Shown: piece by piece, positions 3,159 through 46,392 of the stretch
How positions within the stretch are numbered: position 1 is the first letter of the stretch
How the letters are laid out: each line of letters begins with the position of its first letter
Assembly (NCBI RefSeq): GCF_003177035.1
Contig: NZ_CP029488.1
Span: 1,488,001-1,552,000, forward strand
Reading direction: 5' to 3'
DNA: 64,000 nt
From: Salinisphaera sp. LB1
Lineage (GTDB): Bacteria; Pseudomonadota; Gammaproteobacteria; Nevskiales; Salinisphaeraceae
Position numbers and translations under genes: made by a program
Notes under the pieces: generated by a model
What the model was told of the DNA's origin: nothing
What the model saw: the letters and a program-made list of their open reading frames with translations, nothing else
Databases searched by the model: none

Positions 3159-4211
3159 ATGCGTAATCGACGCGGACTGGGCTTGGCGGTGACCGGCGGG
3201 CAGCTGGCATTGCTGGATCAATCGCAATTGCCGCACGTCGAGCGCTGGCTCGCCATCGACACGGTCGCGGCCATGGTCGAGGCAATCCAGGCGTTACGGG
3301 TGCGCGGCGCGCCGCTGATCGCGATCGCCGCGGCCCTGATGATCGCGGTACGCGCCGAGGCCGGCGACGATCGCGACACGTTGCTCGAAGCGATTGAAAC
3401 CCTGCGATCGGCCCGGCCCACCGCGGTCAATCTGTCCAATGCCATGACCGAACTGCGCCGGGCCATGACCGGCTCGGACTGGCGCTCGGCGCTGGTGGCG
3501 GTCGCCGACGATCTGGCCGACGGCGATGTGGCATTGTGCAGCGCCATGGGTGAAAACGGCGCGGCGTTGATCGCGCCCGGCGAACGCATTCTGACCCACT
3601 GCAATACCGGGGGGCTGGCCACCATCGGCATCGGCACGGCGCTGGGTGTGCTCCGCCGTGCCCACGAACAGGGCAAGGCGATCGCGGTATGGGTGGATGA
3701 GACGCGCCCCCTGCTCCAGGGCGGCCGCCTGACGGCGTGGGAGCTGGGCGCGCTGGGCGTGCCCTATACCTTGATCACCGACAACATGGCCGCGGCCCTC
3801 ATGGCGCGCGGCCAGGTCGATCGCGTCATCGTCGGCGCCGATCGCATCGCGGCCAATGGCGATGTCGCCAACAAGATCGGTACCTATGGCCTGGCCGTGG
3901 CCGCGCACCATCATGGCATTCCGTTTGCCGTGGCCGCGCCCTACACCACCCTTGATCCGGCCTGCGCCTCGGGCGCGGATATCGAGATCGAGCAGCGGGC
4001 GGCCGCCGAGGTGCGCGGCGTGGCCGGGCCGGCCGGCGATCTGTGCTGGGCGCCGGTCGACGCGCCGGTGGCCAATCCGGCCTTCGACGTCACCCCGGCA
4101 GCGCTGATCACCCACTGGATTCTGGATGCGGGTGTGTTCGCTCGCGAGCAGGTGGCAGACGGTGCGCTGGCGGCCGGCGGGGCGGCTTTCGGCGGATCGC
4201 GGGCTTATTAA
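3159..4211 (+). CDS. mtnA: S-methyl-5-thioribose-1-phosphate isomerase
   Basis: Methionine salvage enzyme converting methylthioribose-1-P to methylthioribulose-1-P. The 350-residue protein shows VRGAPLI near 48, [12 protein letters not shown] with the catalytic Cys148, [18 protein letters not shown] at 179-196 and [19 protein letters not shown] with the catalytic Asp228. The C148/D228 spacing equals that of the Bacillus enzyme (C160/D240). It starts 12 bases after manB, so it may be read through from the GDP-mannose genes. Its TAA stop (4209-4211) is also part of the left end of repeat R2. The enolase-phosphatase gene of the same pathway faces it on the other side of that repeat. Confidence 0.95.
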
Positions 4212-4384
4212 CCCGGCACAAAAATAGATGATTTTTCGGGTTAATAGCGCGAGTATGCGACCGCATGCTCGCCGCGGCCATCGGCCGCGAAGCCTTTGAA
4301 AATAAAAGACGGACAGGCGCCGGCTTTTATTTTTGAAGGCGTTGAAAACAGCGGATGAAGTCGGCTGTTTTGATGCCGGATTAA
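4208..4384. repeat. structured repeat R2, copy 1 (TTAA-ended, MITE-like)
   Basis: A 177-bp element nearly identical to 46215-46392. The left end reads TTAACCCGGCACAAAA and the reverse complement of the right end reads TTAATCCGGCATCAAAA, giving imperfect terminal inverted repeats with TTAA at both edges. Inside are consecutive hairpins: AACCCG...CGGGTT with AAAAAT/ATTTTT; GCGAGTATGC/GCATGCTCGC; GCGGCC-ATC-GGCCGC; GCCTTTGAAAATAAAAG pairing with CTTTTATTTTTGAAGGC; and AAAACAGC/GCTGTTTT. No coding frame is credible. It is AT-rich against its surroundings and sits between the convergent mtnA and mtnC genes. Confidence 0.85.
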
Positions 4385-8887: not shown

Positions 8888-8915
8888 ACACCGGCGCCTG
8901 TTGCCGTTTCAGACG
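8888..8915 (+). repeat. R1 solitary end (H)
   Basis: Contains GCCTGTTGCCGTTTCAGACG, matching the conserved outer end of repeat R1, here flanked by CCGGCG and CGCCGGCG so that it sits in the loop of a small hairpin. It lies in the 211-bp gap between the MtfA-like gene and the 5'-nucleotidase gene. That gap otherwise shows only an imperfect hairpin, GTCACGTCC/GGGCGTGAC, at about 8859-8886. Confidence 0.5.
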
Positions 8916-14770: not shown

Positions 14771-15003
14771 GGGCGAGGCGGCGCGTCGCGCCGTGCAGTC
14801 ACTCTGCACAAGCGTGCTACAACGCTGGATTGCCGCAAAACAGCGCTTGTCTCGAAGGGTTGGGCCGCCCATGAAATAACCATGGGCGCCCGGCGGCGTT
14901 GCAAGTCTTGATCGTGGCACGCCACGACGCGGCGACTCGCGCCTTGCCGGACGCGATTTGCGGTCTCCAACGCGGCGCTCGCACGAAACGGCAACAGGTC
15001 CTA
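14771..15003 (-). repeat. structured repeat R1, copy A (one terminus missing)
   Basis: The reverse complement matches copies B and C from the outer end CTAGGACCTGTTGCCGTTTC through the internal hairpins down to about 14774, then similarity stops, so the second inverted terminus is absent. The apical stem GTGCAG-AGTGA-CTGCAC is identical to copy B. A short segment contains CCCATGAAATAACCATGGG, itself a hairpin, where B has a few unrelated bases. The intact end lies 58 bp upstream of the IdnO-like start codon. Confidence 0.85.
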
Positions 15004-15061
15004 GAATCGATCGTCGCCTTCGTCATCGCCTATGCCATTTTCTTCATCTTCCAGGGGTTTA

Positions 15062-23956: not shown

Positions 23957-25009
23957 TCACAGGCTGACCACGCGGCGTTCGGCCGCGGCGGTACGCGCGG
24001 CTTCGATCACGCGGAGCCCGGCTACGGCGTCGCCGGGATCCACCGGCATCGCGCTTTGTTCGCGAAGCGCGGCGGCGAACCGGCGATAGAAGGCGGGGTA
24101 ATCGCCCGCGTGGCTGGGGATCGTCGCGAACTGTTCGCCGGCACCGAGCCGCCCCCAGGCGTTTTCCGGCTCCGTGCCCCAATCGTCGTGGCCGGGTACC
24201 GCGCCGTCACGCAGCCGCTCCTCCTGCGGATCGAGCCCGTATTTCACGAAGCCCGCTCTGTCGCCGAGCACGCGTAAACGCGGGCCGAGGTCGGGCGCCA
24301 CGCTGCTCATCCACAGATGCGAGCGCACGCCTGAACTGTGCCTCAGGGCGACGAAGGAATCATCGTCCACGGCCGAATCGGCATAACCGGCATCGAGCTC
24401 GGCATAAACCTCGCGAGCCGGGCCGAACAGGGTCAGGGCCTGGTCGATCAGATGGCTGCCCAGGTCGAACAGGATGCCACCGGCTGCATCGGGCGCGGCA
24501 TCGCGTTTCCAGCCGGGCTTGGGTTCCGGCCGCCAGCGCTCGAAACGGGATTCGAAGCGCCGTACCGTGCCCAGCCGACCGGCCTCGATCAGCGCCCGCA
24601 GGGTCAGAAAATCGGCGTCCCAGCGCCGGTTCTGGAACACGGTCAACGCCACGCCGCGGTTGCGGGCCGCCGCGATCAGGGTCTCCGCCTGATCGGCCGA
24701 AGCCGCCAGCGGTTTGTCCACGACCACGGCCAGGCCGGTCGCGATCGCGGTTTGCGCATGCGCCGCATGCCAGCCGTTCGGACTGGCCACGACGACGGCA
24801 TCGAATGCGCTGGCCCGGGCCCAGAGCGTTTCGGTATCGGCGATCACTCGCGCGCCGGGATATCGGTCGCCAATCTCGGCGGCGCGCTCGGCGTTTCCGG
24901 TGACGATGGCGGCCAGTTCGAGATCCGGGGTGCTGTGGATCAGGGGCGCATGAAAGATGCGGCCGGCGGTGCCGTAGCCGATGACGGCGATGCGGAGGCG
25001 GTCAGGCAT
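23957..25009 (-). CDS. Gfo/Idh/MocA family oxidoreductase
   Basis: A 350-residue NAD(P)-dependent sugar or inositol oxidoreductase. Rossmann loop IAVIGYGTAGRIFHAPLIH at the start, VVDKPLAASADQAETLI with the family's Lys-Pro, FQNRRWDADFLTLR, PDAAGGILFDLGSHLIDQAL with the catalytic-region Asp/His, and FVKYGLDPQEERL. The pattern is that of the scyllo-inositol dehydrogenase IolW/YvaA subgroup, but the substrate is not proven. Start ATG 25009; the frame is open further upstream only because it runs into repeat R1 copy D. Confidence 0.88.
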   Translation of the reverse strand: MPDRLRIAVIGYGTAGRIFHAPLIHSTPDLELAAIVTGNAERAAEIGDRYPGARVIADTETLWARASAFDAVVVASPNGWHAAHAQTAIATGLAVVVDKPLAASADQAETLIAAARNRGVALTVFQNRRWDADFLTLRALIEAGRLGTVRRFESRFERWRPEPKPGWKRDAAPDAAGGILFDLGSHLIDQALTLFGPAREVYAELDAGYADSAVDDDSFVALRHSSGVRSHLWMSSVAPDLGPRLRVLGDRAGFVKYGLDPQEERLRDGAVPGHDDWGTEPENAWGRLGAGEQFATIPSHAGDYPAFYRRFAAALREQSAMPVDPGDAVAGLRVIEAARTAAAERRVVSL

Positions 25010-25114
25010 GATCGGTATCGGTGTTCGGACGATGCTTGGCCTGCGATGCTGACGCAAAGCCGCGTTTACCACCAGCCGGCGGCCTATCGGCGGCGCATGA
25101 AAAAAGCCGGTCGT

Positions 25115-25200
25115 CCGGGGCCTGTTGCCGTTTCGCGCGAGTCCGCGCCAAGCGCTGTTTTGCGGCAAAACAGCGCTTGGCGCAATGGTAGCAGGCCCTA
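25115..25200 (+). repeat. structured repeat R1, copy D (short form)
   Basis: An 86-bp version: GGGGCCTGTTGCCGTTTCGC, then GAGTCC, then a perfect hairpin with arms GCGCCAAGCGCTGTTTTGC and its complement, then CAATGGTAGCAGGCCCTA. It lacks the middle hairpins of copies B and C. The last three bases (CTA) are the porin stop codon TAG on the minus strand. The hairpin probably also ends porin transcripts. Confidence 0.85.
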
Positions 25201-26556
25201 GTTCTTGATCACGTCGCCGTTGAAGTAGAGGCCCATCTGCAGGTTGTAGCGGGTGTTCCAGCTGCCGTCGCTTGGTCCGTCGAATGTCATGGCCGCGTTC
25301 TTGCCGGTCAGCACATCCGCCCAGACCTGCAGGATGCCGAACGAGAAGTCCGCGCCGACCGCGTTGAACTGGATGTCGCCGGTCGGATTCGGCGCGTTGC
25401 CGGGCAGGGCGCTGTTGAAACGACCACTGCCGCCGGTCATCAGGTAGGCGTAGTTGTCGTACAGCTGGATCGAATGCAGCGCGCCCCAGCCGATCTTGAA
25501 GGTCCGCGCCACATTGGCCGCGAAGATCTGGCCGGAGGCCGGCATCTGGTAGGCGAAGCCGTAGTTCTCCATCGTGATGGCGTCGGTCGGCAACGCATTG
25601 TCGTTATAGGAGCGTCCGGCCGGGATATTGTAGCGATAGTCGACATACTGCCCCTGCAGCGTCCACGGCCCGAGCGCGGCGTCGACCGCCGCGGTGGCGG
25701 CCCAGCGGGTGCCGTAATGGGGCGCGTCTTCCCCCACCTGCAACTCGCCGCCGCGTACCGCGGCCGAGACCTGCACGCTGTGATGTGTGCCCTGGTTGAA
25801 GGTATAGGCCGCGCGCACATTGCCGCCGTTGACCTGCTGATAGCCATCGAACGGATTGGAGCCGTACAGACTGTGCTGTTCCAGATCGTCGTTCTTGAAG
25901 GCGTCGACGTCGAGGCGCCACGGACCGTTTTCGTACTTGTAGCCCAGCCCGGCGGCCTGGTTGTCGGTGAAGCCGGCGTAGTAGGTCAGGTTGCCCCAGA
26001 ATGTCTGGTAGCCGAACCTGAGGTTGCCGAAGGGGACATAGAACATGCCGCCCTTGATCTGACTGTGTTTGCCGAAGTCGTAGGCCGCCCAGCCGTAGCG
26101 CAGATAACTTGAATCGGCGAAGGCGGTCGGCGACCAGCGATACTCGGCGCCGTAGGAGAGCTTGCCCTCCGTGCCGTGAACGTTGAACGCGGCGATGCCC
26201 GCGATCGCGTCGCCGCTGCTGCGGTGGTTCTTCATGTCGGGCTTGAGCTTGTAGCCCGCGGTGAATGCGCCGCCCAGCGTCAATGTCTGCTTGGGTTTGT
26301 TCGCCTGGGCGGTGCTCGATGCGCTGGCTTGGTCGCTGGTCGACGCGTTGTCGGTCGAGGGTTCGGCCGGCATGTTATGTTGTTTTTGCTTGAGCGTGGC
26401 GAGTTGCGATTTGAGCGCCTGGAGTTGTTGCTGCATCGCCTGCAGGCGATGTGCCTTGCTGGTGTTGCTGCTGCTCTGGGCCAGAGCCTGGCCGGACCAG
26501 AGCGCGCTGGCGCCGATCAGCGCCGCGGCGAGACGTAGGCTGGATGAACGATCCAC
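25198..26556 (-). CDS. outer-membrane porin
   Basis: A 452-residue protein with signal peptide (LRLAAALIGASALWSGQALAQ), a short N-terminal coiled coil (HRLQAMQQQLQALKSQLATL), a Ser/Thr/Ala-rich linker and a beta-barrel of alternating aromatic/glycine strands, for example YGAEYRWSPTAFADSSYLRY and GGMFYVPFGNLRFGYQTFWG. The layout resembles carbohydrate or anion-selective porins with a coiled-coil trimer stalk. GTG 26556 follows GGGGGA with good spacing. The last residues, GLYFNGDVIKN, do not end in the usual Phe, and the stop TAG is the edge of repeat R1 copy D, so the original C-terminus may have been altered. Confidence 0.8.
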   Translation of the reverse strand: MDRSSSLRLAAALIGASALWSGQALAQSSSNTSKAHRLQAMQQQLQALKSQLATLKQKQHNMPAEPSTDNASTSDQASASSTAQANKPKQTLTLGGAFTAGYKLKPDMKNHRSSGDAIAGIAAFNVHGTEGKLSYGAEYRWSPTAFADSSYLRYGWAAYDFGKHSQIKGGMFYVPFGNLRFGYQTFWGNLTYYAGFTDNQAAGLGYKYENGPWRLDVDAFKNDDLEQHSLYGSNPFDGYQQVNGGNVRAAYTFNQGTHHSVQVSAAVRGGELQVGEDAPHYGTRWAATAAVDAALGPWTLQGQYVDYRYNIPAGRSYNDNALPTDAITMENYGFAYQMPASGQIFAANVARTFKIGWGALHSIQLYDNYAYLMTGGSGRFNSALPGNAPNPTGDIQFNAVGADFSFGILQVWADVLTGKNAAMTFDGPSDGSWNTRYNLQMGLYFNGDVIKN

Positions 26557-26734
26557 ATATCCCCCTTCGATTGATGATGTCCCCAGGGGGCCGCTCGACT
26601 GAGCAGGAGCGGCCCGGCGAAAGCGTGCTCGAAGCGATCGACGGCCCTTCACGGTCGATCACGGCATACGCTTTGTGCTTACTGAGCCTAGCACGACCGG
26701 CCGATGCGCTGCCGCGGTCGCCCCGGGGCTCGCC

Positions 26735-27766
26735 CTATGGCGGCGGGACCGGCGAGCCCTCGGGCGCCGGCAGGCCCCGCCGGATCGCATCGGAGAAATC
26801 GGAGCTGGCGTGGCCGTCGATGTCGGAGGCGATGGCGGCGTCGTTGATACAGCCGCGACGCCGCAGTTCCGCCGGGGGCAGGCGTGTATCCAGCGCGCCG
26901 AGATCGTAGAGATATTCGGGCAGATGACCCGAGGCCAGAAGGCGCCAGTTCCAGGGCAGTCCGGGTACGATCGCCTTGACCATGTCGTAGACCAGCGTCG
27001 TGCAGTTCGATGTCAGCGTGTGATAGAACCGCGGCCGGTGTTCCAGGGTGTCGGCAGTATCCAGATAAGCCTCGAACAGCGCACGAATGGCGTGCCGGGG
27101 CATCGCCACGCGATACAGATAAACGTCTTCGCGGCGCGCGGTGGTGCGGGTGCGCACGATATCCCGCTCGTCGGCGGCCACCAGGGCCAGTTCACATTGC
27201 CGGAACAGGCCGCCGATGGCCGAAAAATCCTCGCCGGCCAAGCGTCGGACCTCGACCGAAAATACCAGGTGCCGACCATCGGCGAAGGCAAAGGACACCA
27301 GCGTATGGGCGATCGTCGGTCCCATCCAGTACGAGGCCACCAAATCCACGGCAATGAGCTGGTCGAGATCGTAATCGCGCGTTTCCCAGCGCGGGGTGTA
27401 GTCGTCGCGCGTGCGCCAGTCGAAGTTGCGGACGTTGTGCAGGCGGACCTGTGGGCCGTGACGTTCCACGTGGAGCACGCGCGCGACGTCGTCGGCCCAG
27501 GGGCGGTCCGAACGCGGACGGATCTGCGCCCACCACAGCGCGAACGCCAGCCCGGCGAGCGCGAAGATGGCCGGACCGAGCCGGTCGGCGGCGATCAGCC
27601 CGGCAAGACCGGCCAGCGCGGTGGCCCACCAGGCCGCGATCAAGGCGATGCGTAGCGCGCGCGCGTTGGGGCCGCGAAACCAGAGCGCGCCGGTGCCGTA
27701 GCCCGCCACCAGCAGGACGAGCAGCCCGGCGACGACGCGGGCCGCGATCAATAACGCGCCAGTCAT
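26735..27766 (-). CDS. DUF4105 domain membrane protein
   Basis: A 343-residue protein with three N-terminal membrane segments (residues 5-80) and a DUF4105 domain: VRNFDWRTRDDYTPRWETRD, YDLDQLIAVDLVASYWMGPT, IAHTLVSFAFADGRHLVFSV, RRLAGEDFSAIGGLFRQCEL, the RT pair in DIVRTRTTARREDVYLY and the Cys in FYHTLTSNCTTLVYD. The conserved His and Cys suggest an enzyme-like active site facing the periplasm, but the family function is not established. Start ATG 27766. Confidence 0.85.
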   Translation of the reverse strand: MTGALLIAARVVAGLLVLLVAGYGTGALWFRGPNARALRIALIAAWWATALAGLAGLIAADRLGPAIFALAGLAFALWWAQIRPRSDRPWADDVARVLHVERHGPQVRLHNVRNFDWRTRDDYTPRWETRDYDLDQLIAVDLVASYWMGPTIAHTLVSFAFADGRHLVFSVEVRRLAGEDFSAIGGLFRQCELALVAADERDIVRTRTTARREDVYLYRVAMPRHAIRALFEAYLDTADTLEHRPRFYHTLTSNCTTLVYDMVKAIVPGLPWNWRLLASGHLPEYLYDLGALDTRLPPAELRRRGCINDAAIASDIDGHASSDFSDAIRRGLPAPEGSPVPPP

Positions 27767-27833
27767 CGGTGGGGCACGCTATGCCAAGACGGAATCACGC
27801 AGCGCGCGGCCGCCATCATGTCGTGCCTGACCC

Positions 27834-28105
27834 TAGGGCCTGTTGCCGTTTCGTGCGAGCGCCGCGTTGGAGACCGCAAATCGTGTCCGGCAAGGCGCGA
27901 GTCGCCGCGTCGTGGCGTGCCACGATCAAGACTTGCAACGCCGCCGGGCGCGATTTGCGGCCCAACCCGAAGGGACAAGCGCTGTTTTGCGGCAATCCAG
28001 CGTTGTAGCCCGCTTGTGCAGAGTGACTGCACGGCGCGCACTACGCCTCGTCTTGCCGCAAAACAGCGCTTGGCGCGGACTCGGACGAAACGGCAACAGG
28101 CCCTA
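27834..28105 (+). repeat. structured repeat R1, copy B (full length)
   Basis: A 272-bp element bounded by TAGGGCCTGTTGCCGTTTCG on the left and its inverted match at the right (CGAAACGGCAACAGGCCCTA). Internal inverted pairs include ACCGCAAATCG/CGATTTGCGGCC, ACAAGCGCTGTTTTGCGGCAA with TTGCCGCAAAACAGCGCTTGG, and an apical stem GTGCAG-AGTGA-CTGCAC nested in GTAG/CTAC. No coding capacity. Its right edge CTA forms the TAG stop of opgD. TA flanks both GGGCC ends. Confidence 0.9.
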
Positions 28106-29719
28106 ATAATGACGGTCCTGCGGCGCCGGCGGCACCCACTGGTAAAGCCAGGTCTCGGTCAGCGTCTGATTGCCGTTGACCAGATAGGCTCGGAGGGTCA
28201 CCGGGGTGGTGGCGTCGCTCGTGGGCATCCAGTCGAAGACCGCGCGATAGCCGTTGATCGGCTTCATGGCGTGGGTCGAGGTATAACTGATTTTGCCGTT
28301 GGAGGCCGATACATTGACCGTCACGTTGGCGTCGTCGGGCAGCTTGTCCAGCGGCGAGCCGACGAAATCGATCGCAAAGCGGCGGGCGTACTGGTCGGGT
28401 GACTTGTTGCCCGGAATCCAGCCTTCCTGGACATTGCCCATGCCCGACCAGGTCTTGTCCACAGTGGCCAGGGAGGGTGACACGGGTGGTTCGGGCCACC
28501 AGTACAGTGTGTAGTCATAGTGCAGATGCCGGCCGGCGGTCACGGGTTTTTCCGGAATCCAGAACGCCACGATGTTGTCCACGGTTTCGCCGACCGTGGG
28601 CATTTCCATGAGCGCGATCTGGCCCTTGCCCCATTTGTTCGTGGGTTTGAGCCACAGGCTCGGCCGGCGGTTATACCAGGTGACCGGGTCGCGATAATCG
28701 TTGAAATCGTGATCGCGCTGGACCAGGCCGAAACCGCGCGGATTTTCGTCCATGAAGGTGTTGAACTGGATCGTCGGCGGGTTGTAGAGCGGGCGGCAGA
28801 TCCATTCCCCGTTGCCGCGCCACATCGACAGCCGATCCGAGTCGTGCATGAGCGGATAGATCGTATCGCGGGCGGTTTCCTGAGCGGTGCCCTTGAGATA
28901 CATGCTCGTCATCGGCGCGATACCCAGGCGCTTGATCGCCTTGCGCGTATAGACATGCGCCGAAATATCCATGATCACGCCCTGGGCGTTACCGGCATCG
29001 ATGTTGAAGCGATAGGCCCCGGTCGCGCTCGGTGAATCCAGCAACGCATAGACTGTTACGTGCTCGGAGCCGTCCTTCGGCCGCTGGAACCAGAACTGGG
29101 TGAAATCCGGAAACTCCTCGCCGCCGGGCTCGTCGGTATCGATCGCCAGCCCGCGCGCCGACAAGCCGTACTGCTTGTTCTTGTCGATCGCACGAAAATA
29201 ACTCGCGCCCAGAAACGACGCGACCTCGTGTGCGTACGCGCTCCAGGGCTGGACCGCCAGCCGCCAGCCGGCGAATCCCAGGTTATGGCCTTCGAGCTGG
29301 CTCGGATCCACGCCGCTGTGATCGTAGTTGAACAATTCCGGCTTGAAGGGAATCGGATGCGCCCTGCCGGTATCCGGGTCGATATCGTGCATGCGCACCG
29401 GTGTATTGAAATGCATGCCGACATGGAAGAAATGCACCCGCAGGGCGACCTTGGGATCCGACGACCACAGCGCGTCGTGCCAGTCGTACGTGATCTTCTG
29501 ATACTTCAGGGGCGCCAGGCTGGCGAGCGTGTCGGGTAGTGTTTCCGCCGGCGACTGATAGGCCGAGCGCGACATCCTCTGCGCCTTGCTCTTGAGCCAG
29601 TGGAAGGAGAATGGCTGGCCCGGGCCGCTTTCAATCGGCGATTTGGCAAAGGCCGGAATCGCCGGCAGCCCGAGGGATGTCAGCGCCAGAGAGGCCTTGA
29701 GCAGGGTGCGTCGTTGCAT
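28103..29719 (-). CDS. opgD: periplasmic glucan biosynthesis protein D (OpgD/MdoD)
   Basis: A 538-residue OpgD-like protein for osmoregulated periplasmic glucan synthesis. The N-terminus MQRRTLLKASLALTSLGLPA is a twin-arginine signal. Family motifs: PFSFHWLKSKAQRMS, LFNYDHSGVDPSQLEGHNLG, the segment SFLGASYFRAIDKNKQYGLS followed by ARGLAIDT, MTSMYLKGT, RGFGLVQRDHDFNDYRD and KWGKGQIALMEMPT, then HYDYTLYWWPEPP. Length is close to the E. coli protein (551). OpgD shapes the glucan backbone in the periplasm. No opgGH is adjacent. Its stop codon TAG is the edge of repeat R1 copy B. Confidence 0.93.
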   Translation of the reverse strand: MQRRTLLKASLALTSLGLPAIPAFAKSPIESGPGQPFSFHWLKSKAQRMSRSAYQSPAETLPDTLASLAPLKYQKITYDWHDALWSSDPKVALRVHFFHVGMHFNTPVRMHDIDPDTGRAHPIPFKPELFNYDHSGVDPSQLEGHNLGFAGWRLAVQPWSAYAHEVASFLGASYFRAIDKNKQYGLSARGLAIDTDEPGGEEFPDFTQFWFQRPKDGSEHVTVYALLDSPSATGAYRFNIDAGNAQGVIMDISAHVYTRKAIKRLGIAPMTSMYLKGTAQETARDTIYPLMHDSDRLSMWRGNGEWICRPLYNPPTIQFNTFMDENPRGFGLVQRDHDFNDYRDPVTWYNRRPSLWLKPTNKWGKGQIALMEMPTVGETVDNIVAFWIPEKPVTAGRHLHYDYTLYWWPEPPVSPSLATVDKTWSGMGNVQEGWIPGNKSPDQYARRFAIDFVGSPLDKLPDDANVTVNVSASNGKISYTSTHAMKPINGYRAVFDWMPTSDATTPVTLRAYLVNGNQTLTETWLYQWVPPAPQDRHY

Positions 29720-29788
29720 GGGCTGGCCTTATGAATGCTTCCCGGAACAGACAGATCGCCGCGTCGTGGGTTCCCCGGCGGTTTCGGA

Positions 29789-30286
29789 TCAGTCGTCGTG
29801 CGCATGGGCTTCCATCTCGTCCAGGAACTCGGCCGCTTCGTCCTGCATGCGCTGGCGCAGGTCGATCATCTTGCGGGCATAGTCGTTGAGCCGGCGGCCC
29901 TGGGGCGTATCCGGGGTGAAGGTCGGCACCTTCGTCGGCCGGCCTTCGCCGTCAACCGCGACGAACACCAGAATGCAGTGCGTGGTAAAGCGGGCATCGT
30001 CCGATTTCGGGTCGCGTGCATACACGCTCACCGAAATATGCATGCTGGTGTTGCCGGTATGCATCAACTCCGCCTTGAGTTCGACCAGATCGCCCACCCG
30101 GATCGGCTTGAGGAAGCGGATGCCGCCGACATAGGCCGTCACGCAGTAGCTGTGCGACCAGTTTGCGGCGCAGGTATAACCGGCGTGGTCGATCCATTTC
30201 ATGACACTGCCGCCGAAGACATTGCCGCCGAAATTCACATCGGAAGGCTCGGCGAGAAAGCGTAGCGTGATTTCGTGGGTTGACAT
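29789..30286 (-). CDS. acyl-CoA thioesterase (YciA/hotdog family)
   Basis: A 165-residue hotdog-fold thioesterase hydrolysing acyl-CoAs in the cytoplasm. The signature is LRFLAEPSDVNFGGNVFGGS with VMKWIDHAGYTCA, then FLKPIRVGDLVELKAELMHT, GNTSMHISVSVYARD and CILVFVAVDGEGRPTKVP. The catalytic Asp is expected in the WIDHAG stretch. Start ATG 30286. On the same strand as opgD with a 69-bp gap; no functional link is evident. Confidence 0.9.
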   Translation of the reverse strand: MSTHEITLRFLAEPSDVNFGGNVFGGSVMKWIDHAGYTCAANWSHSYCVTAYVGGIRFLKPIRVGDLVELKAELMHTGNTSMHISVSVYARDPKSDDARFTTHCILVFVAVDGEGRPTKVPTFTPDTPQGRRLNDYARKMIDLRQRMQDEAAEFLDEMEAHAHDD

Positions 30287-30430
30287 CGAATACGGGCTTG
30301 GAGAATTCGGGCCGAGTTTAATCGTCTGCCGCGGGCAACGCGACTCGCGGCCGGCCCGCCCTTGGCGCTGTCGTAAGCGCGCCGAGCCGGACCGCGTAGA
30401 CTGGCCCGATCATCCCCACGTGCTTTTGCC

Positions 30431-31270
30431 ATGCAATTGATCGGTTCTCTTGCCTGGGGCCTGTTGCCGTTTCGTGCGAGCGCCGCGTTGGAGACCGCAA
30501 ATCGTGTCCGGCAAGGCGCGAGCCGCCGCGTCGTGGCGTGCCACGACCCAGGCTCGTAACGCCGCCGGGTGCGATTTGCGGCCCAACCCTTCGGGACAAG
30601 CGCTGTTTTGCGGCAATCCAGCGTTGTAGCTCTCTCACGTAGAACGACTACGCCACGTTCGCTACGCCTCGTCTTGCCGTAAAACAGCGCTTGGCGCGGA
30701 CTCGCACGAAGCGGCAACAGGCCCGACGTTCGGCGCACGCGCCTGCTGCTGGTCGACGTCGACTACGAATTTCGCGATCTGGCGATCTACGGCGCCGACC
30801 AGGCTGAGCTGGCGCGCCATAATCCGACACTCAAGATTCCGACCCTGATCGATGGCGAGACGACGTTGTTCGACTCGCGGGTCATCCAGCGTTATCTGGC
30901 GGCGCAGCGGGGGCATGCCCCGCTAAGCTGGCGCGAAGAGAATCAACTGACCGTGATCGACGGCGCCAACGATGCCTTCGTGGCCTTGCTCCTGGCCGCG
31001 CGTTCCGGACTCGACCCAAGCCAGGATGCGATGATCTACAACCGGCACCGCGAGCGCATCCGGACCTGCCTCGACTGGCTTGAGACGGCGGCCGCCGACG
31101 GTGCGTTCGATCATTGGCACTATCCGGCGATCTGTGTGTACTGCATGCTCGACTGGGTGGTCTTCCGCGAACTCCATGATATGTCCGGCTACCGCGCGCT
31201 GGCCGCGGTGCGCGAGCGTCATGGCGGGCAACCGGGCGTTGCCGCGACCGATCCGCGCCAGGCCGTCTGA
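30431..31270 (+). pseudogene. glutathione S-transferase gene split by repeat R1
   Basis: ATG 30431 begins MQLIGSLA, a GST N-terminal strand, and is followed at once by repeat R1 copy C. After the repeat the same frame resumes with PDVRRTRLLLVDVDYEF, KIPTLIDGETTLFDSRVIQR and an all-helical C-terminal domain up to RQAV. Joined, the halves give a normal GST start (MQLIGSLA-SP-DVRRTRLLL). Translation from 30431 hits TAA in the repeat at about 30557. No start codon precedes the 3' part in frame except ATG 30866, which lacks most of the thioredoxin fold. The N-terminal GSH-activating loop is what the element removed. Confidence 0.85.
30456..30724 (+). repeat. structured repeat R1, copy C (inserted in a GST gene)
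   Basis: About 269 bp, running from GGGGCCTGTTGCCGTTTCGT to GAAGCGGCAACAGGCCC. Nearly the same as copy B at the ends and in the CGCAAATCG and GCGCTGTTTTGC stems, but the apical arm reads CGTAG-AACGA-CTACG where B has GTGCAG-AGTGA-CTGCAC: sequence changed, pairing kept. It interrupts codon 9 or so of a GST gene. No target duplication longer than one or two bases is visible. Confidence 0.9.
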
Positions 31271-31278
31271 GCGTCTAT

Positions 31279-31584
31279 TCATAATGGGCGCGGGCCCATG
31301 TAGACATGTCGGACCTGCTGGCCGTACATCTCGACCGTGCCCGCATAACGCCGGTCGCCGCGGCGATAGAACTCGAAGCCGTAGCGGCGGGTCAGACGCC
31401 AGTTGCCGTGGCTGTCGCGGGTCAGACCAATACGCTTGAAAGCCAGTTCGTCAATGAAGGTCACTTCGGCTTCGGCGCAGGCGTTCTGGGCCGCGCGCCG
31501 GGCTGTTGCGCGCGCGCCCATCTGGCGCCACCACACCAGCGCGACGATCGCCAGACCGATCAGCCACGGCGCCAGATCGATCAT
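31279..31584 (-). CDS. DUF3301 domain protein
   Basis: A 101-residue protein with one N-terminal membrane segment (WLIGLAIVALVWW) followed by the DUF3301 pattern ARRAAQNACAEAEVTFIDEL, GLTRDSHGNWRLTRRYGFEF and GTVEMYGQQVRHVYMGP. The family is widespread in gammaproteobacteria and has no known function. ATG 31584 overlaps the stop of the upstream hydroxyacid oxidase gene by four bases, so it is translated from the same message. Confidence 0.85.
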   Translation of the reverse strand: MIDLAPWLIGLAIVALVWWRQMGARATARRAAQNACAEAEVTFIDELAFKRIGLTRDSHGNWRLTRRYGFEFYRRGDRRYAGTVEMYGQQVRHVYMGPRPL

Positions 31585-32888
31585 GCGTGCCCCGGCGTCT
31601 GCAGCCTGACCGTGCCTGAGCGGATGTCGTCCACCGAGCGCGCGCCGGACAGGGCCATGGTGAGCTCGAAATCGGCCGCGGTGTTGGCGATCCACTCGGC
31701 GACTCCGCCCGTGCCCGCCAGTGCCAGCGCATAGGCATAGGGGCGGCCGATAGCGACCGCGTCCGCGCCCAGCGCCAAGGCCTTGACGATGTCGGCGCCG
31801 GTGCGCACGCCCGAATCCAGCACCAGCGTCAGATCGGGGGCGGCGCCGCGGATGGCGATCAGCGCGTCCAGGCTGGCGATCGCCCCGTCGACCTGGCGGC
31901 CGCCGTGATTGGATACGATCAAGCCATCCATGCCGGCTTGGGCGGCGAGTCGTGCGTCGTCGGCCGAGAGGACGCCCTTGAGCAGAATCGGCAAGCGGGT
32001 GTGTTCGCGCAGCCATGCCAGGTCGGACCAGCGCAGGTCCGGGCGTGAGTAGGTGGCCACGAACTGGCGTACCGCGGCCAGGCCGCGGCCGCTGCGCAAC
32101 GCGCGCCAGGCCGAGCCCGGATAATGCCGTGCGCTGGCCAGGACATTGGCCAGCAGCTTCGGCGTGATCGGCGGACGATCGGTCTCGGCGGATGATTCAG
32201 TCAGCATGGCCTGGAATACCGGGTCGTGGGTGTACTGGGCGAGGCCCTGTCCGCGCAGGAAAGGCAGATGCCCGAGATCGAGATCGCGCGGGCGCCAGCC
32301 CAGCAGCGGGGTGTCCAGCGTCACCACGAGGGCTTCGCAGCCACAGGCCTCGGCGCGGCCGATCAGCGATTCGGCCAATGCATCGGATTTCGGCCAGTAC
32401 AGCTGGAACCAGCGCGGCGCGCCGGGGGCAAGCGCGTCCATGGCTGCGGCACAGGCTTCCATCGGCCGGCTGGCCTGACTCGACAGAATCGCCGGGATAC
32501 CGGCGGCGGCGGCCGCGCGCGCCGCGCCCACATCGGCGTCGCGGTGCGCCAGTTCCAGCGCGCCGATCGGTGCCAGCATGAAAGGATGCGGGTAACGGCG
32601 GCCGAATAATGAAACCCCGGTGTCGCGGCAGGAGATGTCGGTGAGCATGCGCGGCACGATCCGCCACGCGTCGAACGCGGCCCGGTTCGCCGCCACGGTG
32701 GTTTCTGCTGAAGCGCCGCCAGCGATATAAGCGTACGCGACCCGCGCCATGCGCCGCCCGGCCGCGGCGGCGAGCGCGCCCGGCTCGACCGGAATCGCCG
32801 GCCGGCGCCCGGCCAGTCCTGCGGAATAAATCGCTTGTTGGCGATTATTCGTGCCGGTGGCAGGTGTCAATTGGTCGTAGCCGGCCAT
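31581..32888 (-). CDS. FMN-dependent alpha-hydroxy-acid oxidase/dehydrogenase
   Basis: A 435-residue member of the lactate/glycolate oxidase family. VAYAYIAGGASAETTVAANR, FMLAPIGALELAHRDADVG, QLYWPKSDALAESLIGRAE, LVVTLDTPLLGWRPRDL, PILLKGVLSADDARLAAQAG and the active-site stretch GLIVSNHGGRQVDGAIASLD with catalytic His and Arg are all present. It oxidises an L-2-hydroxy acid with FMN. Divergent from the polyamine cluster, with the palindrome TTTTTGTGATCACAAAAA in its upstream region. Substrate not proven. Confidence 0.92.
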   Translation of the reverse strand: MAGYDQLTPATGTNNRQQAIYSAGLAGRRPAIPVEPGALAAAAGRRMARVAYAYIAGGASAETTVAANRAAFDAWRIVPRMLTDISCRDTGVSLFGRRYPHPFMLAPIGALELAHRDADVGAARAAAAAGIPAILSSQASRPMEACAAAMDALAPGAPRWFQLYWPKSDALAESLIGRAEACGCEALVVTLDTPLLGWRPRDLDLGHLPFLRGQGLAQYTHDPVFQAMLTESSAETDRPPITPKLLANVLASARHYPGSAWRALRSGRGLAAVRQFVATYSRPDLRWSDLAWLREHTRLPILLKGVLSADDARLAAQAGMDGLIVSNHGGRQVDGAIASLDALIAIRGAAPDLTLVLDSGVRTGADIVKALALGADAVAIGRPYAYALALAGTGGVAEWIANTAADFELTMALSGARSVDDIRSGTVRLQTPGHA

Positions 32889-32969
32889 GCGTCCACTCGT
32901 GTCGTTTCCTGCTTCAGCATAGAGTGAGCCGCCGCGGGCGCCAACGGCAATTGGGCGCGGCCTATGACC

Positions 32970-32987
32970 TTTTTGTGATCACAAAAA
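32970..32987. promoter_or_regulatory. operator 1, perfect palindrome TTTTTGTGATCACAAAAA
   Basis: An 18-bp perfect palindrome about 80 bp upstream of the hydroxyacid oxidase start. Its core TTGTGATCACAA recurs at 33189-33200. The core fits the T-x-G-T...A-C-x-A form of many GntR-family (FCD) operators. Confidence 0.7.
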
Positions 32988-33188
32988 GACGCTAAATGCG
33001 CTATAACAGTGCAAATCCTGCCCGGCGAGCGCTCTTTTGGCGCCGAATCGGCCGGCGCGAGGTCTTGTGAGACTTGGTCCAGGGCTTGCTAGTGCATCCC
33101 GGGCGGGCCGTCTTGTGTCGATTGCAGCGATGTTTGCACCGTGAGCCCGCGATTCGACAGACGGCCATACATTGCGGCATGTTTGGAT

Positions 33189-37428: not shown

Positions 37429-38511
37429 ATGAAACGACGTTGCAATAGAATCGTACTGACCGCAGTGCTGGTGCTGGTGCTGGGGCTGACGGTCGCGACC
37501 GCAGCGAGCGCCGAACCGGCGAAGAAGTTGTATCTGTACAACTGGTCGCAATACATGAGCCCGAAGATCCTCACGGCCTTCGAGCAGCAGTATCACGTCA
37601 AGATCGTGCGCAACTTCTATCACTCCAATCCGGAGTTGTTCGCCAAGCTGCGGGCCGGCGGTGATTCCCAGTATGACGTGATCTTCCCGTCGAACTACTA
37701 CGTGCCGCGGCTGATCGCGACCGGGCTGATCCAGCCGCTCGACAAGACGCTGATCCCGAACTACGACAACCTGATGCCGCGGTTCAGAAAGCCCCCGTAC
37801 GATCCCGAGGGTAAGTACGTCGCGGCCTATCAGTGGGGCGATACCGGCATCGTCTACAACACCAAGAAGCTGGGCCAGCAGCCCGCCAGCTGGTCGATCC
37901 TGTTCGATGCCAAGAACAATCCGCAGTATCCCTTCGCGATGATGACCGATGCCCAGGTGATGCTCGGTGCGGCCTGCGCCTACCAGGGCCACGGCTATGC
38001 CTGCCACGGCGACGACAACTGGAAGCAGGCGGCGCAACTGGTGCTCAAGACCAAGCAACGATCCAACTTCAACGGTTTTCGTGACGGCGTGCCCGTGCTC
38101 AAGCAGCTCGCCCGGGGCACGGTGGACGCCGCGCTCACCTATAACGGCGATTATGTCTCGGAGAAACACGATAATCCGCAGGGGCTGAAAAACACCACGT
38201 TCGTGGTGCCCGCCGAAGGCGCCGAGCTGTGGGTGGACAATATGGCGGTTCCGGCGCATGCACCGCATCCGAAGCTCGCCAACGAGTTCATCAATTTCGT
38301 GCTGGATGCCAAACGCGGCGCCGAGCTGTCGAATTTCAATTACTACGCCAGCCCCAACCAGGCCTCCAAGCCGTATCTGGATGCCGCATTGTCCAAGCCG
38401 CCGATCATGCCCACGCCGGCCGAGATGAAGGTGCTCAAGTTCACGCCGTCGATCCGTGGCCATGATCTGCAATTCGTCCAACAGCTATGGACCGAGATCC
38501 GGTCGCGCTAG
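37429..38511 (+). CDS. polyamine-type substrate-binding protein, paralogue 1
   Basis: A 360-residue periplasmic binding protein of the PotD/PotF family with signal peptide ending ATAASA. YLYNWSQYMSPKILTAFEQQ, ELFAKLRAGGDSQYDVIFPS, AYQWGDTGIVYNTKKLG and FVVPAEGAELWVDNMAVPAH mark the ligand site. It has a Cys pair, ACAYQGHGYACHG, not found in E. coli PotF at this place. First of three tandem paralogues, 29 bp after potC. Confidence 0.92.
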   Translation: MKRRCNRIVLTAVLVLVLGLTVATAASAEPAKKLYLYNWSQYMSPKILTAFEQQYHVKIVRNFYHSNPELFAKLRAGGDSQYDVIFPSNYYVPRLIATGLIQPLDKTLIPNYDNLMPRFRKPPYDPEGKYVAAYQWGDTGIVYNTKKLGQQPASWSILFDAKNNPQYPFAMMTDAQVMLGAACAYQGHGYACHGDDNWKQAAQLVLKTKQRSNFNGFRDGVPVLKQLARGTVDAALTYNGDYVSEKHDNPQGLKNTTFVVPAEGAELWVDNMAVPAHAPHPKLANEFINFVLDAKRGAELSNFNYYASPNQASKPYLDAALSKPPIMPTPAEMKVLKFTPSIRGHDLQFVQQLWTEIRSR

Positions 38512-38581
38512 GGGCGATGCCATGCCATATACAAGCACCCGGCCGTATCCGAACCACACAGCCGCCGGAGCGGTAGCCGAC

Positions 38582-39703
38582 ATGAATGAATCCAAGACCC
38601 GGCGCGTGTCTGCGCTGGCCGCCCGCCTCGGCTGGCGCGGTCTCAAACGACTGGTCCCGGCGCTATTGCTGGCCCTGGCCGGTCTGGCTAGCGCCCAGGC
38701 TGCGCCTTACGGCGACAAGCTGGTGTTGTTCAATTGGTCCGACTACATCAGCCCCAAGCTGATCCAGGCGTTCGAGGCCAAGTACCACGTCAAGGTGGTG
38801 CAGAATTTCTACGAATCCAATCCGGAAATGTTCGCCAAGCTGCGCGCCGGCGGCGACGCCCAGTACGACGTGATCGTGGCTTCGAATTACTATATTCCGC
38901 GGTTGATCGCGAGCGGCCTGATCCAGCCGCTCGACAAGGCCGAGATCCCGAATTTCGACAATTTGATGCCGCGCTTCCAAAAGCCGGCCTACGATCCGAC
39001 GGGCCGCTATACGGCGGCTTACCAGTGGGGCGACACCGGCATCGTCTATAACACCGCAAAACTGGGCAAGCAGCCGCCGAGCTGGTCGATCCTGTTCGAT
39101 CCGACGGCGAACTCGAAGTATCCGTTTGCGATGGGTACCGATGCCCAGGTCATGACCGGGGCGGCGTGCGCCTATCAGGGCCATGGCTACGCCTGCCGCG
39201 GCCGCGACAATTGGAAGCAGGCCGCGAAGCTGTTGCTGAAAACCAAGAAACGCCCGAATTTTTCCGGTTTCGTGGATGGCACGCCGGTATTGCGCCAGCT
39301 CGCGCGCGGCAGCGTGGCCGCGGGGGTGAGTTTCAACGGCGATTACCTCCAGGACAAGGCGAACAATCCGCAGGCCTACAGGCACCTGAAGTTTGTCGTG
39401 CCCAAGGAGGGCGCCGAGCTTTGGGTCGATACCATGGCGATCCCGGACAAGGCGCCGCACGCCAAACTCGCCAACAAGTTCATCAACTTCATACTCGATG
39501 GCAAGAACGGTGCGACGCTGTCGAATTTCACCTGGTACGCCAGCCCCAACAAGGCAGCCCAGCCTTACCTGAAGCCGGCGCTCAAGCGCCCGCCGAGCCA
39601 GCCGACTGCCGCTCAGATGAAGCGTCTGCACTACACGCCGGCGCTCAAGGGCGATTCGCTACAGTTCGTCCAGCAACTCTGGAGCGAAGTTCAATCGCGC
39701 TAG
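38582..39703 (+). CDS. polyamine-type substrate-binding protein, paralogue 2
   Basis: A 373-residue homologue of its neighbours with a long basic N-region before the signal core (LVPALLLALAGLASAQA). LVLFNWSDYISPKLIQAFEA, MFAKLRAGGDAQYDVIVASN, AYQWGDTGIVYNTAKLG and FVVPKEGAELWVDTMAIP follow the PotD/PotF pattern; the Cys pair ACAYQGHGYACRG is kept. ATG 38582 is preferred because ATG 38522 makes the signal n-region about 43 residues. Relative to paralogue 1, WSDY replaces WSQY in the binding cleft. Confidence 0.9.
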   Translation: MNESKTRRVSALAARLGWRGLKRLVPALLLALAGLASAQAAPYGDKLVLFNWSDYISPKLIQAFEAKYHVKVVQNFYESNPEMFAKLRAGGDAQYDVIVASNYYIPRLIASGLIQPLDKAEIPNFDNLMPRFQKPAYDPTGRYTAAYQWGDTGIVYNTAKLGKQPPSWSILFDPTANSKYPFAMGTDAQVMTGAACAYQGHGYACRGRDNWKQAAKLLLKTKKRPNFSGFVDGTPVLRQLARGSVAAGVSFNGDYLQDKANNPQAYRHLKFVVPKEGAELWVDTMAIPDKAPHAKLANKFINFILDGKNGATLSNFTWYASPNKAAQPYLKPALKRPPSQPTAAQMKRLHYTPALKGDSLQFVQQLWSEVQSR

Positions 39704-39755
39704 TTCACGTCACCCGTATCCGAAAGACCCACCCAACAAGCAGCACGAGGACCCG

Positions 39756-40832
39756 ATGATGAGAAAACTCCGACCCCTGACCCGACTGATTGCAGCCGCG
39801 ACCGTCGCAGCATTCGCGCTACCGGCGTTCGCCGCCAACAGCGACACGTTGTACATCTTCAACTGGTCGCAGTACATGAACCCGAAGATCATCAAGCAGT
39901 TCGAGGCGAAGTATCACGTCAAGGTGGTACAGAGCTATTACAACTCACAGCCCGAGATGTTCGCCAAGCTGCGTGCCGGCGGCGACTCGCAGTACGACAT
40001 CGTCGTGCCGTCGAACTACTACGTGCCGCGGCTTATCCATACCGGGCTGATCCAGCCGCTCAACAAGAAGCTGATTCCCAACTACGACAACCTCATGTCG
40101 CGGTTCAAGGACACCAGCTACGATCCCAAGGGCAAGTACACGGCCGCCTATCAGTGGGGCGACACGGGTATTGCCTACAACGTGAAGACCCTGGGTAAAC
40201 AGCCGGCCAGCTGGTCGATCCTGTTCGATCCCAAGGCCAATTCGAAATATCCGTTCGAGATCGGTACCGACGCCCAGGTGATGTTCGGTTCAGCCTGTGC
40301 CTATCTCGGCTACAAATACGACTGCCAAGGGCGCGACAAGTGGACCAAGGCGGCCAAACTCATCCTGAAGACCAAGAAGCGGTCCAACTTTAGTGGCTTC
40401 CAGGACGCCACGCCGACATTGAAACAGCTCGCGCGCGGCAATATCGCGGCCGGCATGGCCTATAACGGCGACTATGCCTTCGATAAGAGCCAGAACCCGG
40501 ACGGTTTCAAGAACATCAAGTTCGTCGTGCCCAAGGAAGGCGCCGAGCTCTGGGTGGACAACATGGCGATTCCGGCCCATGCGCCGCATCCGAAGCTGGC
40601 CAATGAGTTCATCAACTTCATCCTGAAGGCCAAGATCGGCGCCGAGCTGTCGAACTGGAACGCCTATGCCAGCCCGAACAAGGCATCCAAGCCGTATCTG
40701 GACAAGTCGCTGACCCAGCCACCGGTCATGCCGACCGACGCGCAGATGAAGCGTCTGCATTTCACGCCGGCGATCGAAGGCGACAACCTGCAGTTCGTCC
40801 AGCAACTCTGGACGGAAGTGCAGTCGCGCTAG
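39756..40832 (+). CDS. polyamine-type substrate-binding protein, paralogue 3
   Basis: A 358-residue PotD/PotF-type protein with signal peptide (LIAAATVAAFALPAFAA). LYIFNWSQYMNPKIIKQFEA, MFAKLRAGGDSQYDIVVPSN, AYQWGDTGIAYNVKTLG, FVVPKEGAELWVDNMAIPAH and the Cys pair ACAYLGYKYDCQG are present. GAGGA sits four bases before ATG 39756 and seven before ATG 39759; either may be used. The signal sequences of the three paralogues differ much more than the mature parts. Confidence 0.92.
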   Translation: MMRKLRPLTRLIAAATVAAFALPAFAANSDTLYIFNWSQYMNPKIIKQFEAKYHVKVVQSYYNSQPEMFAKLRAGGDSQYDIVVPSNYYVPRLIHTGLIQPLNKKLIPNYDNLMSRFKDTSYDPKGKYTAAYQWGDTGIAYNVKTLGKQPASWSILFDPKANSKYPFEIGTDAQVMFGSACAYLGYKYDCQGRDKWTKAAKLILKTKKRSNFSGFQDATPTLKQLARGNIAAGMAYNGDYAFDKSQNPDGFKNIKFVVPKEGAELWVDNMAIPAHAPHPKLANEFINFILKAKIGAELSNWNAYASPNKASKPYLDKSLTQPPVMPTDAQMKRLHFTPAIEGDNLQFVQQLWTEVQSR

Positions 40833-46214: not shown

Positions 46215-46392
46215 TTAACCCGGCACAAAAATAGATGATTTTTCGGGTTAGTAGCGCGAGTATGCGACCGCATGCTCGCCGCGGCCATTGGCCGCGAAGC
46301 CTTTGAAAATAAAAGACGGAGAAGCGCCGGCTTTTATTTTTGAAGGCGTTGAAAACAGCTGATGAAGTTAGCTTTTTTGTTGACCGGATTAT
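46215..46392. repeat. structured repeat R2, copy 2
   Basis: Matches 4208-4384 with scattered changes. It starts TTAACCCGGCAC and ends GACCGGATTAT, so the right TTAA has become TTAT. The long stem GCCTTTGAAAATAAAAG/CTTTTATTTTTGAAGGC is unchanged while its loop differs (GACGGAGAAGCGCCGG against GACGGACAGGCGCCGG). Again it lies between convergent genes, four bases from the diguanylate cyclase stop. Confidence 0.85.

Follow-up and report, generated by a model that had tools for sequence, protein, structure and literature searches.

The GST gene of Salinisphaera sp. LB1, a salt- and acid-loving bacterium, is split close to its start by a 268-bp repeat (R1). This arrangement raises the question of whether the repeat moved into a gene that was once intact and, if so, what moved it and what became of the enzyme. 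We examined the surrounding 64,000 nucleotides of the LB1 chromosome (the window, in whose coordinates positions are given unless stated otherwise), together with further copies of the repeat and related Salinisphaera genomes. R1 is a non-autonomous, protein-less palindromic MITE of a family that is apparently undescribed; full-text searches of open-access papers yielded no mention of the repeat in Salinisphaera. An Rfam search of window positions 24000–33000 gave no match. Very probably, an IS5-family (IS427-like) transposase put R1 into the GST gene through its GGGCCTGTTGCCGTTTC ends, leaving a null or near-null pseudogene.

A GST gene interrupted by R1

The split open reading frame spans 30431–31270. 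Its 5′ fragment (30431–30456, plus strand), delimited by comparison with orthologue N termini, reads ATG CAA TTG ATC GGT TCT CTT GCC from 30431 and thus encodes MQLIGSLA, followed by the TG of the next codon. The 3′ fragment (30725–31270, plus strand) begins DVRRTRLLL and continues without internal stops to the stop codon at 31268–31270. Between them lies R1 (30457–30724; GGGCCTGTTGCC...GGCAACAGGCCC), bounded by 24-bp terminal inverted repeats that match at 23 of 24 positions; a TAA within it (30557–30559, plus strand) is in the GST frame and terminates reading after 42 amino acids. The two fragments share one frame, with 294 bases from the ATG to the GAC, and when joined they score over the Pfam cut-offs for both GST_N and GST_C_2.

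An uninterrupted orthologue is present in 10 of 13 congeners. These proteins start M[KE]L[LI]GS..SP[YF]VRR and are 51–60% identical to the LB1 protein over 180–181 of its 182 residues, and none of the ten carries the R1 interruption. The preliminary description had proposed that R1 is mobile and had entered a once-intact GST gene; the ten intact relatives, together with the empty sites of other R1 copies described below, uphold this, and the LB1 gene is confirmed as a once-intact gene interrupted by R1. The flanking genes are conserved in position, and reading of their sequences suggests a putative thioesterase-like protein upstream (29789–30286, minus strand) and a putative lactate-dehydrogenase/FMN alpha-hydroxy-acid-dehydrogenase-like protein downstream (31581–32888, minus strand). 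Both neighbours are kept in S. hydrothermalis C41B8, the nearest relative of LB1 in the set, with the GST between them absent; strain Q1T1-3 likewise keeps the neighbours and has no GST at the site, and in a third congener the gene is reduced to a decayed remnant. Since GST has gone independently in sister species, the enzyme is dispensable. A shared gene thus existed and was lost several times in Salinisphaera, the R1 insertion in LB1 being one such loss.

The junctions are less tidy than the clean insertion footprint first described. With a slash marking each boundary, the left junction reads GCCTG/GGG and the right CCC/GACGTT; the flanks are therefore TG/R1/GA, there is no target duplication, even of 2 bp, and the conserved coding sequence is six bases short. 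This is one of the 5 of 36 full-length LB1 copies that have no TA at either junction. The proline that had been read as part of a GST continuation (PDVRRTRLLL) comes from the terminal CCC of R1 itself, and GST sequence resumes with DVRR at 30725. Likewise, the fragments do rejoin in the same frame, as had been stated, but not into a normal N terminus, because the Ser-Pro pair is missing: the joined flanks give MQLIGSLA-[Y/D]VRR against M..GS..SPYVRR in the orthologues. The pre-insertion allele is consequently not readable from the flanks. Excision of 270 bp would restore GCC-TAC-GTT (Ala-Tyr-Val), provided that the outermost flanking T and A are original, in which case the Tyr codon of the orthologues falls at the insertion point; the Tyr/Phe codon that follows Ser-Pro is TAY in most of them. 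As to the exact target base, we infer that insertion most likely took place at the TA of this conserved Tyr/Phe codon, just past Ser-Pro, and that the Ser-Pro pair would have been lost and both TA copies altered before, during or after insertion.

R1 sits in the loop that follows strand 1, the place at which YibF-like GSTs have S-P-[YF]-V-R. The Salinisphaera orthologues align with these bacterial enzymes (PDB 3r2q, 4ibp; 3tot) from residue 1 and share their S-P-[YF]-x-R start, but an orthologue scores 56 bits against the cut-off of 181 for the NCBIfam PRK10357 equivalog, which makes it a relative and not necessarily the same enzyme; the LB1 gene is, in addition, broken. In LB1 the N-terminal catalytic loop is broken by R1 and lacks Ser-Pro, and from the position of the insertion it is soundly predicted that the glutathione-activating loop has been destroyed. 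The product would be a 42-amino-acid peptide, with the first usable start of the 3′ part beyond strand 1, helix 1 and strand 2, and GST activity would have been lost.

The R1 family and its mobility

R1 occurs in about 40 copies in LB1, and matches were found in 14 of 14 Salinisphaera genomes tested. Full-length LB1 copies measure 257–309 bp, mostly 267–268 bp, which is too short for a transposase gene, and all 36 have inverted ends. Among 61 genomes searched, the exact 18-base end pattern GGCCTGTTGCCGTTTCGT was found in 8, all of them Salinisphaera; the 47 from other genera lacked it. As a single strand, R1 adopts a closed-stem fold that encloses two large hairpins (z −10.8). Across 21 LB1 copies, 99% of the pairs are formed and 24 pairs have changed on both sides, against at most 4 such pairs in a control in which the partner was shifted by one or two columns.

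The window holds a second full copy (27836–28103, flanks CTA/R1/TAA), a partial copy in the opposite orientation (14787–15004, minus strand), recognized by its inverted repeats I1–I4 and a family match at chromosomal positions 1502816–1503004, and a remnant of about 81 bp with two ends and most of the middle gone (25118–25198). Lone matches to an R1 end with at most 1 mismatch in 12 bases, at 8894, 11497, 53490 and 59966, are perhaps older remnants or chance. Elsewhere on the chromosome (219016–219286), another copy seems to break the frame of a putative MFS-type transporter about 40 residues from its start; the joined flanks are open in frame. Two further repeats were seen in the window: three tandem copies of a unit of about 1.15 kb, 72–84% alike and probably duplicated genes (37527–40700), and a 168-bp direct repeat (4208–4375 and 46215–46382; 95% identical, 42 kb apart), which is positionally unrelated to R1.

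Empty sites demonstrate movement of R1 without relying on the GST copy. Within LB1, an R1 copy at chromosomal positions 974598–974870 lies inside an IS110-family transposase gene that has five intact paralogues; these read CCTAAACTG (also given as CCTAAACTGCGAC), compared with CCTA/R1/TAAACTG at the filled site, that is, CCTA/268 bp/TAAACTGCGAC. The window copy at 27836–28103 is missing from S. hydrothermalis C41B8, where the site is empty and has a single TA. Filled sites thus differ from empty ones by two extra bases, and because the target is palindromic this fits a TA duplication and an element that ends in A...T alike. Of the 11 copies in S. hydrothermalis, 9 have TA at both junctions; of the 36 in LB1, 15 do, and 31 have it at one junction or more. 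When junctions in LB1 were shuffled to test for direct target duplication, 15.2 cases were expected against the 16 observed, which is uninformative. Where TA is departed from on one side in LB1, 15 changes lie at the outer base and a single one at the inner base, a bias for which IS110 elements at R1 ends account only in part.

Transposition systems that may act on R1

A probable mover of R1 is found in sister species. IS5-family elements of 855–860 bp with R1-like 17-bp ends and TA on both sides are present in four genomes (G001, G003, G006 and G007; loci L273:1471–2330, L267, L265, L285, L287 and L288). In S. hydrothermalis there are three such elements, each 860 bp long and nearly identical to the others, with ends that read GGGCGTGTTGAGGTTTC or close variants; the transposase frame is open in one and carries a TGA in the other two. 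The element ends GGGCGTGTTGAGGTTTC (G006) and GGGCCTGTTGATGTTTC (G001) are exact R1 end variants of their own genomes. The transposase scores 257.7 bits against the NCBIfam IS5 model (NF033580; cut-off 110), and that of S. hydrothermalis matches DUF4096 (PF13340) well. We refer to these elements as IS427-like on the basis of traits and not of a tree, namely their IS5-type DDE transposase, size, ends and TA flanks. Members of that group are about 830–865 bp long, with 13–21-bp ends and usually a 2-bp repeat; published IS427-group elements measure 832–865 bp and have 2-bp repeats, with one exception that has 4 (PMC3281130).

These observations make the IS5-family element the probable mover of R1, with a transposase that would act on the MITE through the shared ends. 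No copy of an IS5-family transposase or insertion sequence with R1-like ends was detectable in LB1, and the DUF4096 search of that genome gave no match; the mover has therefore been lost from LB1 or came from elsewhere, and R1 looks stranded there. Two other candidates were rejected: a pair of terminal inverted repeats 2.2 kb apart (L068), considered as an autonomous copy, encloses ordinary host genes, and the IS630-type elements of LB1, of which five copies are full-length, end in unrelated sequence (TACTAATCCGTTCA).

A second transposition system touches the same ends. Four of the five intact IS110-family copies in LB1 (chromosomal positions 444461, 2036372, 1893606 and 1376314; L257–L260) lie flush against an R1-type end, ...GGCAAGACACAA/GGGTCTGTTGCC, which suggests that R1 ends are an IS110 landing site; REP palindromes are a known target of insertion sequences (PMC1525189). 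We offer only tentatively the broader reading of R1 as an undescribed genus-wide MITE whose three-way-junction fold is under selection and which is spread by IS5-type enzymes, has its ends targeted by RNA-guided IS110 and itself jumps into IS110. We consider it somewhat less likely than not; if it is true, a single palindrome is the meeting point of two transposition systems that are unrelated to each other.

Three other explanations of the locus were weighed against insertion by an IS5-family transposase. R1 might be no transposon at all but a structured repeat spread by recombination or by REP-type single-strand transposition. The strong, conserved branched fold with its compensatory pairs speaks for this, as do left and right junctions in LB1 that match no more often than shuffled pairs and the outer-base bias, which looks as though A...T belonged to the element. 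We nevertheless consider it unlikely, given the exact empty sites that differ by two bases, the terminal inverted repeats, the TA target and the insertion sequences of sister genomes, whose ends show the same variants, and since IS110 landing on R1 ends accounts for some of the odd junctions. An artefact of assembly or annotation, with GST intact in the cell, is scarcely credible: repeats can mislead assemblies, and nothing else supports the idea, but the genome is a complete single contig of 4,141,708 bp, sequenced with PacBio reads at about 93× (PMC6256560) relative to which a 268-bp repeat is short, and the GST copy, up to 97% identical to other LB1 copies, duplicates none of them.

GST might also still be used, through a restart inside or after R1 that makes a working protein with an altered N terminus. 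The 3′ part runs for 182 codons without a stop or frameshift, and of 55 sites that are otherwise invariant, no more than 3 are changed in LB1; relaxed selection on the remainder is not detectable. Such limited decay fits a recent R1 hit but would suit residual function as well. Against reuse, there is no ATG, GTG or TTG from the last in-frame R1 stop to 30866, the earliest such codon in the 3′ fragment, so any restart leaves the thioredoxin fold without its first two strands and first helix, and a gene absent or decayed in three congeners is dispensable. We regard reuse as very unlikely and retain the interpretation of an R1 insertion that abolished, or nearly abolished, the gene.

R1 among known elements

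The split GST gene is an ordinary insertional knockout for which the evidence of R1 movement and of its probable source is unusually good. It documents a natural GST knockout and defines an apparently undescribed MITE family together with a probable transposase. LB1, with about 40 copies and no detectable mover, and S. hydrothermalis, which has kept both, form a natural pair for a MITE losing its engine.

Like the Correia/NEMIS, ERIC and RUP MITEs (reviewed in PMC2229807), R1 is short and protein-less, has terminal inverted repeats, TA ends that may reflect the target duplication known from them, and strong stem–loop folding, and is mostly intergenic and sometimes intragenic. It differs from them in length (257–309 bp as opposed to under 200 bp), in being GC-rich where they are AT-rich, in folding as a branched stem that encloses two large hairpins, and in its restriction to Salinisphaera among the genomes searched. 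With the IS427 group of the IS5 family it shares TA flanks and ends that match the 17-bp insertion-sequence ends, including the CCG, AGG and ATG variants; unlike those elements it has no transposase, and it has nothing but the ends in common with them, the interior being palindromic DNA of unrelated sequence. REP/BIME sequences, which are associated with RAYT transposases, resemble R1 in being high-copy palindromes on which IS110-type elements land, as they seem to do on R1; PMC1525189 describes insertion sequences with REPs as targets. R1 differs in being several-fold longer, in its terminal inverted repeats and TA target, and in inserting as a whole unit, as the empty sites show.
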